Shown here: piece by piece, positions 24,022 through 61,245 of the stretch
Position numbering within the stretch: position 1 is the first letter of the stretch
How the letters are laid out: every line of letters starts with the position of its first letter
Origin: Methylotenera sp.
GTDB taxonomy: Bacteria > Pseudomonadota > Gammaproteobacteria > Burkholderiales > Methylophilaceae
Direction of reading: 5' to 3'
Length of the DNA stretch: 64,000 nucleotides
Assembly (NCBI RefSeq): GCF_029945535.1
Contig: NZ_JAQSCU010000013.1
Location: 249,522 to 313,521, forward strand
The notes under the pieces: generated by a model
Told to the model about the DNA's origin: nothing
Database searches by the model: none
What the model saw: the letters and a program-made list of their open reading frames with translations, nothing else
Made by a program: the position numbers and the translations under genes

Positions 24022-24048
24022 ATGACGGTCAGAAAATAGAAAACTTTA
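24022..24048 (-). promoter_or_regulatory. Candidate sigma-28 promoter for flgKL
   Basis: On minus, TAAAGTTT is followed after 11 bases by ACCGTCAT. The -35 half matches the extended sigma-28 consensus fully. The -10 half keeps the CCG core but only about half of the remaining bases. It ends 37 bases from the flgK start. Confidence 0.5.
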
Positions 24049-31681: not shown

Positions 31682-31708
31682 TAAAGAAAAGTCATTGATT
31701 GCCGATAA
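31682..31708 (+). promoter_or_regulatory. Sigma-28 promoter for flgA
   Basis: TAAA (31682-31685), exactly 15 bases, then a perfect GCCGATAA (31701-31708). This is the FliA consensus at consensus spacing, reading toward flgA 160 bases downstream. Confidence 0.8.
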
Positions 31709-31788
31709 CTTAGTTGCAAACCACTTTTTGCAAACAATTTGTATTACGTGCAAGTCTAGAATTAAAAGAGTGACTTTGATTGTTAAAG

Positions 31789-31815
31789 TAAAAGGGTAAA
31801 ACTTGCCCTTTTCTT
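31789..31815. promoter_or_regulatory. Dyad element A upstream of flgB (shared with flhB leader)
   Basis: AAAAGGG (31790-31796) and CCCTTTT (31806-31812) flank a nine-base centre. Read toward flgB, the core is AAAGGGC, two bases, GTTT, one base, ACCCTTTTA. The same pattern occurs at 48195-48219 upstream of flhB. It could be an operator, a leader hairpin or a terminator; I favour a shared regulatory element. Confidence 0.5.
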
Positions 31816-41027: not shown

Positions 41028-41768
41028 CTAACGAAGATAAGCCAGTAATCGTTCTTCAACGACTCTAGGATGATCACCACTGGCAATAGAAACCCATGCG
41101 TTTAGCAGCATTTCTCTGCGCATCATTTCGTGCTGAATCAATCCTTTAAGCTTGTTTGAAATAGGCAAGAATACCAAATTGGCTAAGCCAACACCGTAAA
41201 TAGTGGCAACAAACGCCACGGCAATACCGCTTCCTAGCCTGCTTGGGTCAGATAAATTCTCCATTACATGAATCAAGCCAAGCACTGCACCCAAAATACC
41301 GACAGTCGGCGCATAGCCGCCAGCGGCACTCCAAATTTTGGCGGAGTTACGCTCTTGAATCTCGAAAAAGTGCATATCAATAGCAATCACCTGCCGAATT
41401 TTCTCTGGTGGCGTGCCATCTATCATTAGTTTTAGGCCTTTTTGAATAAAAGGATCAGTTTCTTTTTTTAAGTAAGTTTCCAGCATGAAAATGCCTTCTT
41501 TGCGGGCAAAGTTGCTCCAAAGAATGATGCGATTGGCAAGGGCTTTCCTGTCATCTAATGGTGGAGAAAATACTTGGCGTACCATCTTCAAGCCAGCGAT
41601 AAAGCTGTTTAAATTTGTTTGTAGTAATACGGCACCGAACGTGCCGCACATCACAATCAAGAATGCGGCAGGCTGTATGAGTGAGCTTATTTGCCCACCT
41701 TCGATGGCTTGTCCGAGCAGTATGCCTATTAAGGCAAGTGCTAAGCCGCCTAAACTGCTCCAGTCCAT
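41028..41768 (-). CDS. motC: Flagellar stator protein MotC (MotA family)
   Basis: This 246-residue MotA/ExbB-type protein has four membrane helices (about 5-22, 30-50, 150-172 and 182-202). The conserved GGYAPTVGILGAVLGLIHVM and the cytoplasmic charged loop interact with the rotor. The start lies 19 bases inside the end of fliA, so the stator genes are translationally linked to the flhB-fliA operon. Confidence 0.94.
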   Translation of the reverse strand: MDWSSLGGLALALIGILLGQAIEGGQISSLIQPAAFLIVMCGTFGAVLLQTNLNSFIAGLKMVRQVFSPPLDDRKALANRIILWSNFARKEGIFMLETYLKKETDPFIQKGLKLMIDGTPPEKIRQVIAIDMHFFEIQERNSAKIWSAAGGYAPTVGILGAVLGLIHVMENLSDPSRLGSGIAVAFVATIYGVGLANLVFLPISNKLKGLIQHEMMRREMLLNAWVSIASGDHPRVVEERLLAYLR

Positions 41769-42484
41769 GATTTCTCTTTTAGATTAGAACGCAGCCTAGC
41801 AACTGCTTGGCTATGTAGTTGGCAAACGCGTGATTCAGAAACGTTCATCACCGCACCTATTTCTTTTAAGTTTAGCTCTTGCTCGTAATATAGCCCCATC
41901 AGTATTTTTTCACGCTCAGGCAAGGCGGTAATTGCACCTACCAATGCATCGCGGAAGTCGCCTTCCAACAAGCTTTTAATGGGGTCGCCCCTATTATCAG
42001 CATTAAATCGATCAAGAAAATGCTCACCGTTCTCTGACTCATGAAAATCTTCATAGTAAATCAGTTGGTGTCCACTGCAATCACCCAGCATGTCGTAGTA
42101 GTCATTCAATGAAAGTTGTAGTTTTTTAGCCACTTCATTTTCTGTGGGCGGCTTGCCTAACTGTTGCTCTAGCTGACTAATTGCTATCTCTACATCTCGC
42201 ATGCTCTTGCGCACGCTGCGCGGCAACCAGTCTGCGCTGCGCAGCTCGTCTAGCATAGAGCCGCGAATTCTTTGTGCAGCATAAGTCTCAAACTGTGCGC
42301 CATGTGTGTCTTCATAACGATTAATCGCATCGAGTAAGCCCATCATGCCAGCCTGGATTAAGTCATCTAGTTCAACACTAGGTGGCAGTTTGGCTTTAAG
42401 CTGATAGGCGAGCTTTTTAACCAAAACGGCATGCTTGTTTAGCAGCTCGTCTTTCTGGTCTTTTTTTCCATGAATGGTATACAT
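41750..42484 (-). CDS. fliA: RNA polymerase sigma-28 factor FliA
   Basis: This 244-residue flagellar sigma factor has region 2 (LDDLIQAGMMGLLDAINRYE, AQRIRGSMLDELRSADWLPR), region 3 and region 4 (LPEREKILMGLYYEQELNLK, then VSESRVCQLHSQAVARLR). It reads the TAAA-N15-GCCGATAA promoters found upstream of flgA, flgM and elsewhere in this window. It is held by FlgM. It lies 14 bases after flhG. Confidence 0.97.
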   Translation of the reverse strand: MYTIHGKKDQKDELLNKHAVLVKKLAYQLKAKLPPSVELDDLIQAGMMGLLDAINRYEDTHGAQFETYAAQRIRGSMLDELRSADWLPRSVRKSMRDVEIAISQLEQQLGKPPTENEVAKKLQLSLNDYYDMLGDCSGHQLIYYEDFHESENGEHFLDRFNADNRGDPIKSLLEGDFRDALVGAITALPEREKILMGLYYEQELNLKEIGAVMNVSESRVCQLHSQAVARLRSNLKEKSWTGAV

Positions 42485-44815: not shown

Positions 44816-46896
44816 GCTGAACCTCCAATAAGACTAGTGACACGTATGGTTTTTGAATCAGGTAATTCGTCGTGTGACAACACACGAAGATGCGGTACAG
44901 CGCGGCGTAAAAATTTAGATAACGCAGCGCGAAGTGGAGCTGAAACCAGTAATACTGGCGTCATACCCATTTGTTCCTGTTGTTTAGCAGCAGTTTCTGC
45001 TTGTCTGGACAATGTTTCTGCCATGCCTGGCTCAATTGCTGAGCCTGCTGTGCCATTACCTTGCATTGCTTGGGTTAATAAGCGTTCAAGGTTGCTATCA
45101 AGCGTCATCACAGTGACTTCATTACCAGTAGGGAATAGTTGTTGCACGATGGCGCGGCCAAGTTGAACACGCACTACAGCGGTTAACTCGCTAGTATCTT
45201 GCGTTTGCGTTGCGTATTCAGAAAGTGTTTCTACAATAGTGCGCATATCGCGAATATGTACACCTTCAGACAATAAGTTTTGCAGTACTTTTTGAATCAC
45301 TGAAAGTGACAATAGTTTTGGTGTTAAGTCTTCAACCAATTTTGGTGAATCTTTGCTGATATGGTCTAGTAATTGTTGTACTTCTTGGCGACCAAGCAAT
45401 TCAGCAGCGTGAAGTGAAATAATGTGATTCAAATGAGTTGCAATCACAGTGCCAGCATCAACTACGGTGTAACCCATGTTTTGCGCTTCATCTTTAATGT
45501 TGCTCTCTATCCATACTGCAGGTAAGCCAAACGCTGGGTCTGTCGTCATGGTGCCAGGCAATGAGCCAGATACCATGCCTGGGTCAATGGCTAAAAACTG
45601 AGCATAATTAGATTCACCGCTAGCAATTTCCACACCTTTAAGTGTGATTTTATAGCTAGAAGGTTTGAGTTCTAAGTTGTCACGAATATGCACAGTCGGT
45701 GCTAAGAAACCAACTTCTTGTGCAAATTTCTTACGTAAACCTTTGATGCGTTTAAGCAAATCACCGCCTTGCGCTTTGTCTACCAATGGAATCAAACGGT
45801 AGCCAACTTCAAGGCCGATTAAGTCAACAGGCGTTACATCGTCCCAAGTGGCTTCTTCTAACGTTGAAACCACTTCAACTTTTTCTTCTACTACAGGCTC
45901 AGCATCTTCAATTTTTTTCTGTTCAGCGATAAAGTAAGCCATGCCAGCCAATATTGCAGCCAACAACAAGAATGCAAAGTGAGGCATACCTGGAATGGCA
46001 CCCATGCCGCCGATGATGCCGGCGGTGACATACACCACTTTTGAGTTTGAGAATAACTGTGTAACTAACTGACCACCAATATCTTCATTATTAGCCACGC
46101 GTGATACCACCACACCGGCTGCCACTGAAATAATGAGTGACGGGATTTGTGCCACTAAACCATCACCAATGGCTAACATGGTGTAGTTTTTAACTGCATC
46201 AGCAAACGCTAGATCATGCTGCACGATACCTACCACTAATCCGCCTACAATATTAATGATGATGACCATGATGCCGGCAACTGCGTCACCACGTACATAT
46301 TTACTTGCACCATCCATCGCGCCGTAGAATTCTGACTCTTGACCAACTTCAGCACGGCGACGGCGTGCCTCATCTTCGCCAATCAAACCTGCGTTTAAGT
46401 CAGCATCAATTGCCATTTGTTTGCCAGGCATTGCGTCTAAGGTAAAACGTGCGCCAACTTCAGCAATACGTCCAGCACCTTTAGTCACAACTGTAAAGTT
46501 GATGATAGTTAAAATCACGAAAACTACGATACCAACTGTGTAGTTACCACCGATTAAGAAGTGACCAAAAGCTTCAATCACTTTACCCGCAGCGTCAGGA
46601 CCATTGTGACCTTCAGCTAACACTACGCGAGTTGAGGCTACGTTAAGTGATAAGCGCAACATAGTTGTCATGAGTAATACGGTAGGGAACGCAATGAAGT
46701 CGAGTGCTTTTTTGGTTTGTAGACCAATGAGCAATACCATGATCGAGATAGCGATATTGAAACTAAACAACACATCTAGAATAACAGCGGGTAGTGGCAA
46801 TATCATCATTGCTAAAAGCAAGACGATAATAGCTGGTGCCGCAATATTACGGCTTGCGAACTTGTTCATCCAAGGTGGTAGATTAAGCCCGTTCAT
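44812..46896 (-). CDS. flhA: Flagellar export gate protein FlhA
   Basis: This 694-residue export-gate component has about eight membrane helices in the N-terminal half with the conserved FHIPEP signature region (DAMPGKQMAIDADLNAGLIG, EDEARRRRAEV). A cytoplasmic half of about 350 residues binds chaperone-substrate complexes (THLNHIISLHAAELLGRQEV). The length matches the family. The start overlaps the flhB stop by one base. Confidence 0.97.
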   Translation of the reverse strand: MNGLNLPPWMNKFASRNIAAPAIIVLLLAMMILPLPAVILDVLFSFNIAISIMVLLIGLQTKKALDFIAFPTVLLMTTMLRLSLNVASTRVVLAEGHNGPDAAGKVIEAFGHFLIGGNYTVGIVVFVILTIINFTVVTKGAGRIAEVGARFTLDAMPGKQMAIDADLNAGLIGEDEARRRRAEVGQESEFYGAMDGASKYVRGDAVAGIMVIIINIVGGLVVGIVQHDLAFADAVKNYTMLAIGDGLVAQIPSLIISVAAGVVVSRVANNEDIGGQLVTQLFSNSKVVYVTAGIIGGMGAIPGMPHFAFLLLAAILAGMAYFIAEQKKIEDAEPVVEEKVEVVSTLEEATWDDVTPVDLIGLEVGYRLIPLVDKAQGGDLLKRIKGLRKKFAQEVGFLAPTVHIRDNLELKPSSYKITLKGVEIASGESNYAQFLAIDPGMVSGSLPGTMTTDPAFGLPAVWIESNIKDEAQNMGYTVVDAGTVIATHLNHIISLHAAELLGRQEVQQLLDHISKDSPKLVEDLTPKLLSLSVIQKVLQNLLSEGVHIRDMRTIVETLSEYATQTQDTSELTAVVRVQLGRAIVQQLFPTGNEVTVMTLDSNLERLLTQAMQGNGTAGSAIEPGMAETLSRQAETAAKQQEQMGMTPVLLVSAPLRAALSKFLRRAVPHLRVLSHDELPDSKTIRVTSLIGGSA

Positions 46897-48080
46897 TAGA
46901 TGAATACTCCTGCATCTTCAATATCATTCACACTAGGCGCTGGTAATAGGCTATGTGGATCAAGCGCATCAGGTACAGCAAGTGTTGTTGGAATTTCTGG
47001 GTAGAAACCACCATCCTTTTTAAAGATGCGCATTTGGAATACATAAGCCAATATTTCAGCCACTGCCGAATATAAAGCTTCAGGAATTTCGTTACCAAGT
47101 TCTGTGTGTGCATACAAAGCACGTGCCAATTTTGGTGACTCCATGATTAATACTTTATGCTCACCAGCAATTTCACGAATTTTTAGTGCAACCTCATCTG
47201 CACCTTTAGCCACCACAACAGGTGCGCGCATGCCCTCATCTTGATATTTAATCGCAACTGCATAGTGGGTAGGGTTGGTAATCACTACGTCTGCATTTGG
47301 AATTTCAGACATCATTCTGCGTTTAGCCATCTCACGTTGTTGTTGGCGAATTTTGGCTTTAATTTCTGGGTTACCGTCAGACTCTTTAGATTCTTGTCGA
47401 ACCTCTTCTTTAGTCATTTTTAGCTTGTTAGCGTAGTGATAAAGTTGATATGGCACATCAATCGCAGCAATAAATACTAAGGTGCTGACGATGGTTAAGA
47501 AGCCAGTCAACATCAAACTACCTACTTGAGAGATGCTGGATTTTAATGGCAACGTAGAAAGTGTAAGGATAGGTTCCATATCATGTGATATGACAACATA
47601 TGCCACTATTCCAACGAGCAATACTTTGGCAATGGATTTAACTAACTCAACCAGTGAATTTTTAGAGATGATATTGCTTAACCCTTTAATAGGGTTTAGG
47701 CGGTTAAATTGAGGTACGAATGCTTTACCACTAAATATCCATCCACCAACCAATATTGGCGCAGCAATCGCAACTGCTACTAAAATTAAAGCTAGCGGCG
47801 CAAATGCCGTTAAGAGTGAAGAGATTGAATCTGCGGTTCTCATTAGTAACACCGTAGGTTCAAAAGCTGCAGTGCGATCAAATTGTAAACCTGAGCTCAT
47901 GGTGGTTTTCAATGCTTGATTAAGATGTTCGCTCATCATCAGTATGGTTAAGCCAGCGGTGAAAAGCACAGTGACAGTGGCCAACTCGCGAGAGCGTGGC
48001 ACATCGCCTTCTTTCCGAGCTTCTTCTAAGCGCTTGGAGGAGGCCTGTTCTGTTTTTTCTAAATCGCTGTCTTCTGCCAT
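46896..48080 (-). CDS. flhB: Flagellar export switch protein FlhB
   Basis: This 394-residue protein has four membrane helices and a cytoplasmic domain with the autocleavage motif NPTH near residue 269, which switches export from hook to filament substrates. The N-terminus MAEDSDLEKTEQASSKRLEE is typical. The C-terminal tail after FQMRIFKKDGGFYPEIPTTL is slightly extended. It is the first gene of the seven-gene operon ending in motD. Confidence 0.97.
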   Translation of the reverse strand: MAEDSDLEKTEQASSKRLEEARKEGDVPRSRELATVTVLFTAGLTILMMSEHLNQALKTTMSSGLQFDRTAAFEPTVLLMRTADSISSLLTAFAPLALILVAVAIAAPILVGGWIFSGKAFVPQFNRLNPIKGLSNIISKNSLVELVKSIAKVLLVGIVAYVVISHDMEPILTLSTLPLKSSISQVGSLMLTGFLTIVSTLVFIAAIDVPYQLYHYANKLKMTKEEVRQESKESDGNPEIKAKIRQQQREMAKRRMMSEIPNADVVITNPTHYAVAIKYQDEGMRAPVVVAKGADEVALKIREIAGEHKVLIMESPKLARALYAHTELGNEIPEALYSAVAEILAYVFQMRIFKKDGGFYPEIPTTLAVPDALDPHSLLPAPSVNDIEDAGVFI

Positions 48081-48194
48081 GACGATTCCTAAAGTTTGTT
48101 CAAATCAACATTCAAGTAAAAAATATTTTTTGTTACTTTGTTGACTACATGGAATGAATTATCAGGCGAATTGATGCGATTGCATCTTTGGAAT

Positions 48195-48219
48195 AAAAGG
48201 GTGAAACCAGCCCTTTCTT
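48195..48219. promoter_or_regulatory. Dyad element B upstream of flhB (matches element A at flgB)
   Basis: AAAGGG (48196-48201) and CCCTTT (48211-48216) flank a nine-base centre, the same size as in element A. Read toward flhB it shares AAAGGGC, GTTT and ACCCTTTTA with the flgB copy. It lies about 115 bases before the flhB start. Confidence 0.5.
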
Positions 48220-48356
48220 GAGTGCCTAGCGTTAAATTTAGCTAGATTTGATGACTTATACAGCTCTTTTTGAAAATATTTTTATAAATATTTATAATTA
48301 AATTCATTTACTTAGAGTTATCTTTAAAAATATTTAATATTTATTTGAAATTTTCC

Positions 48357-48383
48357 TAAAGTTTTCTAAAGTGTTGCCGATAA
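48357..48383 (+). promoter_or_regulatory. Perfect sigma-28 promoter pointing toward flhDC
   Basis: TAAAGTTT (48357-48364), 11 bases, GCCGATAA (48376-48383): all 16 positions of the extended sigma-28 consensus match. The next gene in this direction is flhD, 433 bases downstream. Confidence 0.8.
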
Positions 48384-48512
48384 ATATTTATTAGATGAAA
48401 CCGAAAGTGTTTTTACACATTATTTTGTAATCGGATTAAAGAAATTGAAATGAATGCCGTTACAACTCTTAAGGTATTGAGTTTTAGCACAGAAATTAAT
48501 ACGTAAACAGTA

Positions 48513-48539
48513 GTAACGGTAAAGCTTTGTAAAACTTTA
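48513..48539 (-). promoter_or_regulatory. Sigma-28-like promoter pointing toward flhB
   Basis: On minus, TAAAGTTT, 11 bases, ACCGTTAC. The -35 half is perfect and the -10 half matches five of eight, similar to the candidate at flgK. Transcription would reach flhB after about 425 bases. Confidence 0.4.
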
Positions 48540-48650
48540 GAAAAATTTTAGGATATTTTTTAGAATGAAATTACATATTTAACACACTCTTACACACACT
48601 TAAGTTATTTTATATTTCTTAAGTGATTGATATATATAGATTCCATTAGC

Positions 48651-48687
48651 CCCTTGTAGGTGTTTGTAAGACAAACACCTACAAGGG
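48651..48687. repeat. 17-bp perfect inverted repeat with triloop upstream of flhD
   Basis: CCCTTGTAGGTGTTTGT (48651-48667) is exactly complementary to ACAAACACCTACAAGGG (48671-48687) with AAG between. In RNA this is a very stable hairpin about 130 bases before flhD. No T-run follows, so it is not a classical terminator. Confidence 0.85.
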
Positions 48688-48815
48688 TGCGTCCGCTTAT
48701 CCTACCGAATTAACCGACAAACCCTAATTGTTAAGAAGTGTTAACAAGCTCAAAGTACAACTCATACGCGCAACACATTATTTACAACCGAAGTAAAAAT
48801 GAATGGGGAAATAAA

Positions 48816-49136
48816 ATGAACGAATTTGAAATGATGGCAGAAATTAAAGATGCAAACTTAAATTACTTAATGTTAGCTCAACAGTTAATTCGTTCAGATA
48901 AAGCCACTGCAATTTTCCGCTTAGGTATCAGCAAAGACATCGCAGATTTGCTTGAAGGTTTAAGTAACTTACAGTTACTTAAACTCAGCAATGCCAACAT
49001 GATGCTAGCACGCTTCCGTTTTGATGATAGCGCAATTTTGGGCATGTTAACAAACTACACAAAAGATCGTGCACAAGCTCACTTGCATACTGCCGTTTTA
49101 ATGGCAGGCCAAAACGCCGAAGCAATGGCACATTAA
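48816..49136 (+). CDS. flhD: Flagellar master transcriptional regulator FlhD
   Basis: This 106-residue subunit of the FlhD4C2 activator turns on class II flagellar operons. It starts MNEFEMMAEIKDANLNYLML with GGGGA six bases before the ATG; an upstream ATG at 48738 would add 26 unrelated residues. The conserved QLIRSDKATAIFRLGIS and ITNxxLLKLS-like segments are present. flhC follows by 49 bases. Confidence 0.97.
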   Translation: MNEFEMMAEIKDANLNYLMLAQQLIRSDKATAIFRLGISKDIADLLEGLSNLQLLKLSNANMMLARFRFDDSAILGMLTNYTKDRAQAHLHTAVLMAGQNAEAMAH

Positions 49137-49185
49137 TCAACATGAGTTAGCGAGTAGTATTTGACTATAAGTTAAGGGGAATATA

Positions 49186-49743
49186 ATGGAAAAGAAAAGT
49201 GTAGTGAACGAAGCAGAACAAATCCAACTAGCGATTAAAATGATTAAACTAGGTGCTAGATTACAACTGCTGGAATCTCAAACAACCTTATCTCGTGAAC
49301 GCTTAATCAAACTATACAAAGAGCTAAAAGGCGTATCGCCACCAAAAGGGATGTTGCCATTTTCTACTGATTGGTTCTTAACTTGGCAACCAAATATTCA
49401 CTCATCTATTTTCTTTAATATTTATAAATTCATGGTGGATTACACCGATGAAAAAGGCATACATGCCATCATTAAAGCTTACAGTCTTTACTTGCAACAA
49501 GTTGAACAAGAGGGCGAAGAAGAACCAGTATTGTCAATGACACGTGCTTGGACATTGGTACGTTTTGTTGAAAGCAAAATGTTGAAAATGCAAAGTTGCA
49601 ATTGCTGTGGTGGTAGTTTTATTGTGAATACCTATGACTTAAATCACAAGTATGTATGCAATTTATGCCACGTGCCTTCACGCGCAGGTAAAACTAAAAA
49701 GGCTAAAGAATTGACTTATAAATTAGTCGCTATACCAGCATAA
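49186..49743 (+). CDS. flhC: Flagellar master transcriptional regulator FlhC
   Basis: This 185-residue DNA-binding subunit of FlhDC has the zinc-binding cysteine cluster near 139-162 (CNCCGG and CNLC). The conserved N-terminal helix region is LGARLQLLESQTTLSRERLI and the block GMLPFSTDWFLTWQPNIHSS is typical. GGGGAA precedes ATG 49186. Confidence 0.97.
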   Translation: MEKKSVVNEAEQIQLAIKMIKLGARLQLLESQTTLSRERLIKLYKELKGVSPPKGMLPFSTDWFLTWQPNIHSSIFFNIYKFMVDYTDEKGIHAIIKAYSLYLQQVEQEGEEEPVLSMTRAWTLVRFVESKMLKMQSCNCCGGSFIVNTYDLNHKYVCNLCHVPSRAGKTKKAKELTYKLVAIPA

Positions 49744-60872: not shown

Positions 60873-60899
60873 TAAAGTTTTAAAAAGAAACGCCGTAAT
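60873..60899 (+). promoter_or_regulatory. Sigma-28-like promoter for the small secreted protein
   Basis: TAAAGTTT (60873-60880), 11 bases, GCCGTAAT (60892-60899). The -35 half is perfect and the GCCG core is intact. It ends 109 bases before the next start codon. Confidence 0.55.
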
Positions 60900-61008: not shown

Positions 61009-61245
61009 ATGAAAAAACTAGTAATTACAACCTTAGCAACCACTTTATTAACAGTAGCTTCACTTAATTTATACGCAGCAGAGGTATGTAAAGTTTCAAT
61101 GATGGGACGTATTTGTTTTGAAGAAGGCAGCCCAGAAGCAACAGCAGCACATATGAAAGGTGATGCGGTAGCAGATTCTACTAAGCGTAAAGAAGCTGCA
61201 AATGAAAAAGATGATGCTTCAGCTAAAAAAGTGGCTACAAAGTAA
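61009..61245 (+). CDS. Small exported protein of unknown function
   Basis: This 78-residue protein has a Sec signal peptide ending at about residue 24 (NLYAA before EVCK). The mature peptide of about 54 residues has two cysteines eight residues apart (CKVSMMGRIC), probably a disulfide, then a charged Lys/Glu/Ala-rich tail without structure. I do not recognise the family. It lies alone between two chemoreceptor genes behind a sigma-28-like promoter, so it may be made with the late flagellar genes. The ORF is short, but the signal peptide makes it credible. Confidence 0.7.
   Translation: MKKLVITTLATTLLTVASLNLYAAEVCKVSMMGRICFEEGSPEATAAHMKGDAVADSTKRKEAANEKDDASAKKVATK

Follow-up and report, generated by a model that had tools for sequence, protein, structure and literature searches.

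The region between flhB and flhD

The window, by which the whole 64,000-nucleotide stretch of Methylotenera DNA analysed here is meant, carries flhD and flhC on the plus strand and, divergently orientated to them, a row of genes that begins with flhB and includes fliA. The flhB start (48080, minus) and the flhD ATG (48816, plus) are separated by 735 bases. Pfam confirms FlhD, FlhC, FlhB, FlhA, FlgM and FlgK, and FliA is supported by Pfam and NCBIfam (321 bits against a cut-off of 201). The features are as follows.

41750..42484, minus: fliA (sigma-28), further down the flhB row (Pfam and NCBIfam)
46896..48080, minus: flhB, first gene of the divergent row (Pfam)
48191-48219: dyad block A before flhB, GAATAAAAGGGTGAAACCAGCCCTTTCTT; a similar block, AAGTAAAAGGGTAAAACTTGCCCTTTTCTT, at 31786-31815
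48357..48383, plus: putative sigma-28 (FliA) promoter, TAAAGTTT-N11-GCCGATAA, directed toward flhD, expected start near 48390
48390..48815, plus: predicted FliA-dependent leader or non-coding RNA
48513..48539, minus: facing sigma-28-like site, TAAAGTTTTACAAAGCTTTACCGTTAC, three mismatches, 23.5 bits with a fliC-trained matrix
48651..48687, plus: hairpin with a perfect 17-bp, covarying stem and no T-tract after it
48666..48682, plus: 17-base dyad GTAAGACAAACACCTAC, a motif found before flhD in many families and a candidate operator
48750..48757, plus: conserved TCAAAGTA, candidate -10 element of flhD's own promoter
48816..49136, plus: flhD (Pfam)
49186..49743, plus: flhC (Pfam)

The intergenic region contains further conserved blocks and many inverted repeats. 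The dyad block at 48191-48219, next to flhB, is kept in relatives and recurs at 31786-31815 between flgB and flgA; the pair is a candidate for the FlhDC (class II) operator of the genus. A reading of block A as a terminator was rejected, as its unpaired positions are conserved too and it is like the block between flgB and flgA.

The minus-strand site at 48513-48539, which is absent from the earlier note on this DNA, faces the one at 48357-48383 and points at flhB-flhA-flhF-flhG-fliA and MotC/MotD-type genes, flhG being called from gene order and a weak MinD-type match. Transcripts predicted from the two facing sites would overlap by about 115 bases. Within the genus the facing site has three mismatches or fewer in 14 of 25 loci and reaches at least 20 bits with the fliC matrix in 13 of the 23 loci scored. 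It is degenerate in two close relatives of the window species (L021 and L006) and is thus less constrained.

The sigma-28 motif and its conservation

The plus-strand motif at 48357-48383 reads TAAAGTTT-TCTAAAGTGTT-GCCGATAA with a spacing of 11 and matches the sigma-28 consensus at 16 of 16 positions, as the earlier note had claimed; that note's placing of flhD as the next gene behind a 433-base leader also holds, the ATG at 48816 lying 433 bases past the end of the -10 element and about 426 bases from the predicted start near 48390. Its 16 defined positions are identical to those of the FliA-dependent tar promoter of E. coli as given in Table 2 of PMC4183435. A scan of the window at up to three mismatches returned seven sigma-28 matches against 0.84 expected, and only this one is without mismatch. 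No other exact match occurs in the whole genome (3.0 Mb), for which base composition predicts 0.003. At up to three mismatches the genome yields 79 matches against 71 with a reversed control pattern, which is the level of background, so weak sigma-28 matches prove nothing by themselves. At two mismatches the pattern marks fliC (two sites), fliD and flgM of the same genome, and such matches also fall inside unrelated genes.

A matrix suited to the genus was derived from the regions upstream of 24 flagellin genes, each from a different genome. Nearly all of these regions contain two sites, CCTAAA(G/C)TTT-N11-(A/T)CCGATA or CCTAAAGATTT-N11-ACCGATA, which deviate from the E. coli consensus at two to four positions and in a few cases at one. 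The matrix comprises 38 unique fliC sites from the 23 other Methylotenera genomes, with the spacer unscored and with the window genome's own two sites and one doubtful site left out. On both strands of the window it places 48357 first (27.1 bits) and the facing site at 48513-48539 second (23.5 bits). The next ranks are taken by 32712 at flgM (14.5), 24022-24048 on the minus strand preceding flgK (13.4), 60873-60899 on the plus strand (11.4) and 31682-31708 on the plus strand preceding flgA (11.3), after which the score drops to 5.2. The site at 60873-60899 lies upstream of a 78-aa ORF (61009-61245) that has a signal-peptide-like start, sits between two chemoreceptor genes and is possibly a new late gene.

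FlhD is present in 28 of the 52 Methylotenera genomes. Twenty-five loci were scanned, of which ten carry the site without mismatch, nine with one, one with two and three with three; the other two were not judged, one having too short an upstream sequence (L003) and one being interrupted by N (L028, which shows no notable match within 750 bases and a two-mismatch site at -813), and both were left out of the matrix scoring. Outside the 25 stand L009, not judged with 148 bases of upstream sequence, and L026 and L027, in which no FlhD was found other than a copy that lacks a sigma-28 site. Second flhD copies in L029 and L030 are without the site as well, and this other type of copy (L026, L027, L029 and L030) is preceded by GTAAGACAAAC-type motifs. 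None of 300 dinucleotide shuffles equalled the genus sites at zero or one mismatch. Among 21 sequences including the window, mean pairwise identity is 0.97 for the -35 element with its CC and 0.90 for the -10 element, against 0.65 for the spacer and 0.17 for positions 48426-48510.

Beyond the genus, 90 loci of the order were compared, a set that is not random as it consists of the 30 best-scoring and 60 hand-picked loci from 148 genomes with FlhD. A site with up to three mismatches and more than 200 bases before flhD occurs in 32 of them, eight at exactly three mismatches. The positive loci belong to other Methylophilaceae (6/7) and to the families f7 (9/13), f24 (6/10), f33 (9/11), f28 (1/1) and f47 (1/2); the other 16 families sampled (one to eight loci each, 46 in total) have no such site more than 200 bases before flhD. 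In several other families of the order the site is directed at flhD from about 230-640 bases upstream. Family f33 probably includes Sulfuriferula, since the best match of L163 is the same as that of the named locus L105 (S. multivorans). Among named loci outside the genus, 17 of the 43 readable ones (45 in all) have the site, namely those of Undibacterium (2/2), Herminiimonas (3/3), Noviherbaspirillum (1/2), Duganella (1/2), Herbaspirillum (1/7 readable), Keguizhuia, one Janthinobacterium MAG, three Oxalobacteraceae MAGs and, at three mismatches, four Nitrosospira. Two sites per locus are present in L111, L161, L171 and L185, and up to three can be made out by eye in L167. The gene upstream varies between families (exonuclease, M18 peptidase, amidohydrolase, pilin, GGDEF protein, RelA/SpoT part or divergent flhB; two of ten such neighbouring ORFs scanned are without a family), and the sigma-28 site therefore goes with flhD.

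In Thiobacillus- and Hydrogenophilales-type loci the best match, with three to four mismatches, is at -86 to -91, a different position that was not counted. Twelve loci (L116-L121, L125 and L129-L133) share a sequence like TTAACTTT-N11-(G/T)CCGA(A/T)AA at 86-91 bases before flhD, and the sequence at this position could be a shifted promoter.

Taken with the fliC-trained matrix, the conservation within the genus and across families and the flagellar controls of the same genome lend strong support to the sigma-28 reading of the earlier note, and the motif at 48357-48383 is, as judged from sequence, very probably a genuine FliA promoter.

Structure of the predicted transcript

Between the promoter and flhD lies a hairpin whose arms, 48651-48667 and 48671-48687, form a perfect 17-bp stem around a three-base loop. 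Its 27-base core has no other match in the genome at up to three mismatches except its own reverse complement, and as a single-copy sequence it is ruled out as a repeat element. Across 31 Methylophilaceae sequences 12 of 18 stem pairs are changed on both sides and 95.2% of cells pair, figures neither of which is reached by any of 500 shuffles, and sliding the partners by one to three columns lowers pairing to 34-52%. Even the core of the stem is changed on both sides in L171, L187 and L189. Such covariation suggests a structure in RNA, and so some transcript would cross 48651-48687 from a start further upstream, as the FliA promoter would give. The stem symmetry could alternatively be kept by a DNA dyad, against which the two-sided core changes of L171, L187 and L189 speak. 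Wobble cells inside the stem do not discriminate between the strands (five G-U cells on the plus strand against three on the minus). The 17-base dyad GTARG-N7-CYTAC, which overlaps the hairpin, also precedes flhD in families that lack a sigma-28 site, so that a DNA operator may overlap the hairpin. It looks like a response-regulator operator and presumably resembles RcsB-type sites.

The hairpin is followed in the window by TGCGTCCGC and not by a T-tract, and is thus not a canonical terminator in this species. A consensus scan of 48060-48900 for intrinsic terminators on the plus strand found none, and neither did a second scan. In some relatives the hairpin at this place is followed by a T-tract, for example in Undibacterium (L095 and L098), another member of the Methylophilaceae (L189) and Methylotenera itself (L005). 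Rfam gave no match at E<=1 for 47900-49300, and in the loci of eight relatives a single tRNA stood above its cut-off and six other matches below theirs. Inverted repeats 85-235 bases before flhD are longer in loci with a sigma-28 site (10.4 bp, n=74) than in those without (6.0 bp, n=83), and leaving out the f1g1 rows the mean for loci with a site is 7.6 bp (n=50, p about 0.001). An ORF of at least 40 aa lies between site and flhD in 29 of 68 loci with the site, at scattered positions.

The most explicit indication of what such a transcript might do comes from family f24, in which 49 of 74 loci (73 readable) have the sigma-28 site. The sites (loci within L277-L336) lie about 230-390 bases before flhD, and the count excludes those closer than 150 bases (L281, one mismatch at -121). 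The predicted RNA opens with a hairpin. Its loop, in most cases GUCCCCUUGC or GUCCCCUCGC, is the complement of the Shine-Dalgarno sequence of flhD, which reads GCAAGGGGAC or GCGAGGGGAC. This loop motif is found in 43 of the 49 loci and falls within the hairpin loop in 42. The longest complement to the own flhD start averages 7.96 bases, compared to 4.55 for shuffled sequences and 6.62 with permuted partners (none of 5000 permutations reached 7.96, a result inflated by the relatedness of the loci), and is only three to five bases in several loci. In 38 of 49 loci the 3' part of the RNA has a folding energy of -8 kcal/mol or lower, and it often ends in T, as a terminator would; these are single-sequence folds, cut at the next GTA(A/G), which shortened some of the 3' hairpins. 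No pairs emerged when 28 f24 RNAs were folded as a consensus (alignment A1), and a model drawn from the same alignment (R1) was sequence-only and was not used. That the loop varies along with the flhD start suggests a negative feedback of FliA on flhD, probably exerted by a separate RNA that ends before flhD.

In the first 60 bases of the predicted Methylophilaceae transcripts the anti-Shine-Dalgarno complement is 5.07 bases against 5.21 shuffled (n=30), and in the window the duplex with the flhD Shine-Dalgarno sequence has a p of 0.78 and shows no pairing beyond shuffles; the mechanism of f24 is therefore not claimed for the family of the window. The corresponding values are only slightly above shuffled sequences in Oxalobacteraceae-type loci (5.57 against 4.79, n=21) and in f33 (5.89 against 5.04, n=9). 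Single strong complements occur in L111 (11 bases) and in L096 and L097 (seven bases each), on which nothing is built.

Proposed feedback on flhDC and its alternatives

It is proposed that the FliA promoter at 48357-48383 makes the flhB-flhD region a feedback node that reaches flhDC, a mechanism that as a whole is judged marginally probable. Once FlgM leaves, FliA would be free and RNA polymerase would start near 48390. The resulting RNA would include the conserved hairpin and at least part of it would continue into flhDC, and transcription from the facing promoter on the minus strand would simultaneously run toward flhB and the row that contains fliA. Both the transcription and its reach into flhDC are predictions, and read-through is favoured by the scans, which detected no terminator in the window species. 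The sign of the feedback in Methylotenera is probably positive. Against the mechanism, transcription across flhD's own promoter could interfere with that promoter, and by analogy a long sigma-28 leader need not be translated; the degenerate state of the facing site in L021 and L006 also counts against it.

The closest rival, which the analysis rates as possible and somewhat short of probable, is a separate non-coding RNA, some 300 bases long, with its 3' end at 48651-48687 that would regulate flhDC or other flagellar messages. It gains from the covarying hairpin, from the T-tracts past the hairpin in L005, L189, L095 and L098, from the longer inverted repeats upstream of flhD in loci with a sigma-28 site, and from the FliA-type RNA of f24 with its terminator-like 3' hairpin before flhD; given these T-tracts and the f24 RNA, the ancestral product may have been a separate RNA. 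It is opposed by the tail of the window hairpin, which is TGCGTCCGC and not T, by the poor conservation of much of the RNA body in the genus (0.17) and by the lack of pairing to the flhD Shine-Dalgarno sequence above shuffles. The earlier note had offered feedback on flhDC or an RNA of this size as alternatives, and either may be right: the absence of a terminator in the window favours read-through, the T-tracts of relatives and the f24 RNA favour the separate product. A FliA-dependent leader into flhDC is favoured as the simplest reading. It is very improbable that an f24-like RNA acts here by repressing flhD through pairing with its Shine-Dalgarno sequence, as the loop motif (43/49) and the complement of 7.96 bases against 6.62 permuted and 4.55 shuffled that speak for it in f24 have no counterpart in the Methylophilaceae (5.07 against 5.21, n=30; p 0.78 in the window). 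It is equally hard to credit that the motif is due to chance or is another regulator's operator resembling a sigma-28 promoter, for although genome matches at up to three mismatches are at background and the region is rich in inverted repeats and has further conserved blocks, the match is exact, scores highest with the fliC matrix, keeps its spacing of 11 over a freer spacer and recurs before flhD in several families.

The FliA-dependent leader has partial parallels. In EHEC, as the title of Clarke and Sperandio (2005) has it, QseBC and sigma-28 (FliA) control flhDC, so that there too the master operon is under feedback from a late sigma factor; that control is coupled to QseBC, whereas here there are an exact promoter, several betaproteobacterial families and a facing second site. 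FliA ChIP-seq in E. coli MG1655 lists 52 sites (PMC4183435); one lies within flhC, and the region upstream of flhDC has none. The sigma-28-dependent small RNAs MotR, FliX, UhpU and FlgO tune the flagellar cascade of E. coli, and in this they are like the RNA considered here; UhpU raises flhDC indirectly via LrhA, and the available text of PMC10578931 describes none of the four as upstream of flhD (PMC10578931). The f24 RNA, unlike these four, would target flhD itself. In Salmonella a translationally inert sigma-28 transcript at fliA is named in the title of Tanabe et al. (2011); FliA likewise transcribes its own regulatory tier there, but in a fliAZ operon, whereas here the flhBAFG-fliA row and flhDC are served from one intergenic region. 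Among the matches listed in a search of the open-access literature, no title or beginning of an abstract describes, for betaproteobacteria, an RNA or a sigma-28 promoter upstream of flhD, and a facing sigma-28 pair was not found among them either.

More tentatively, and at present as a possibility short of a probable one, betaproteobacteria may share an ancient FliA-dependent RNA before flhD that signals completion of the hook to the top of the cascade, acting by base-pairing in one family and in Methylotenera as either a structured leader or a separate RNA; in that genus the facing promoter would also boost the fliA row. The FlhDC cascade is usually drawn one-way, with flhDC at the head, FliA next and the filament genes last. 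Methylotenera and many of its relatives probably have a late-gene switch before the first flagellar gene, by which the end of assembly reports to the start. If this is true, a FliA promoter conserved before flhDC across betaproteobacterial families turns the cascade into a loop. The f24 lead suggests that the loop can also be negative and RNA-based, stopping the building of flagella, and a stop of this type would be a complement to the sigma-28 small RNAs known from E. coli.
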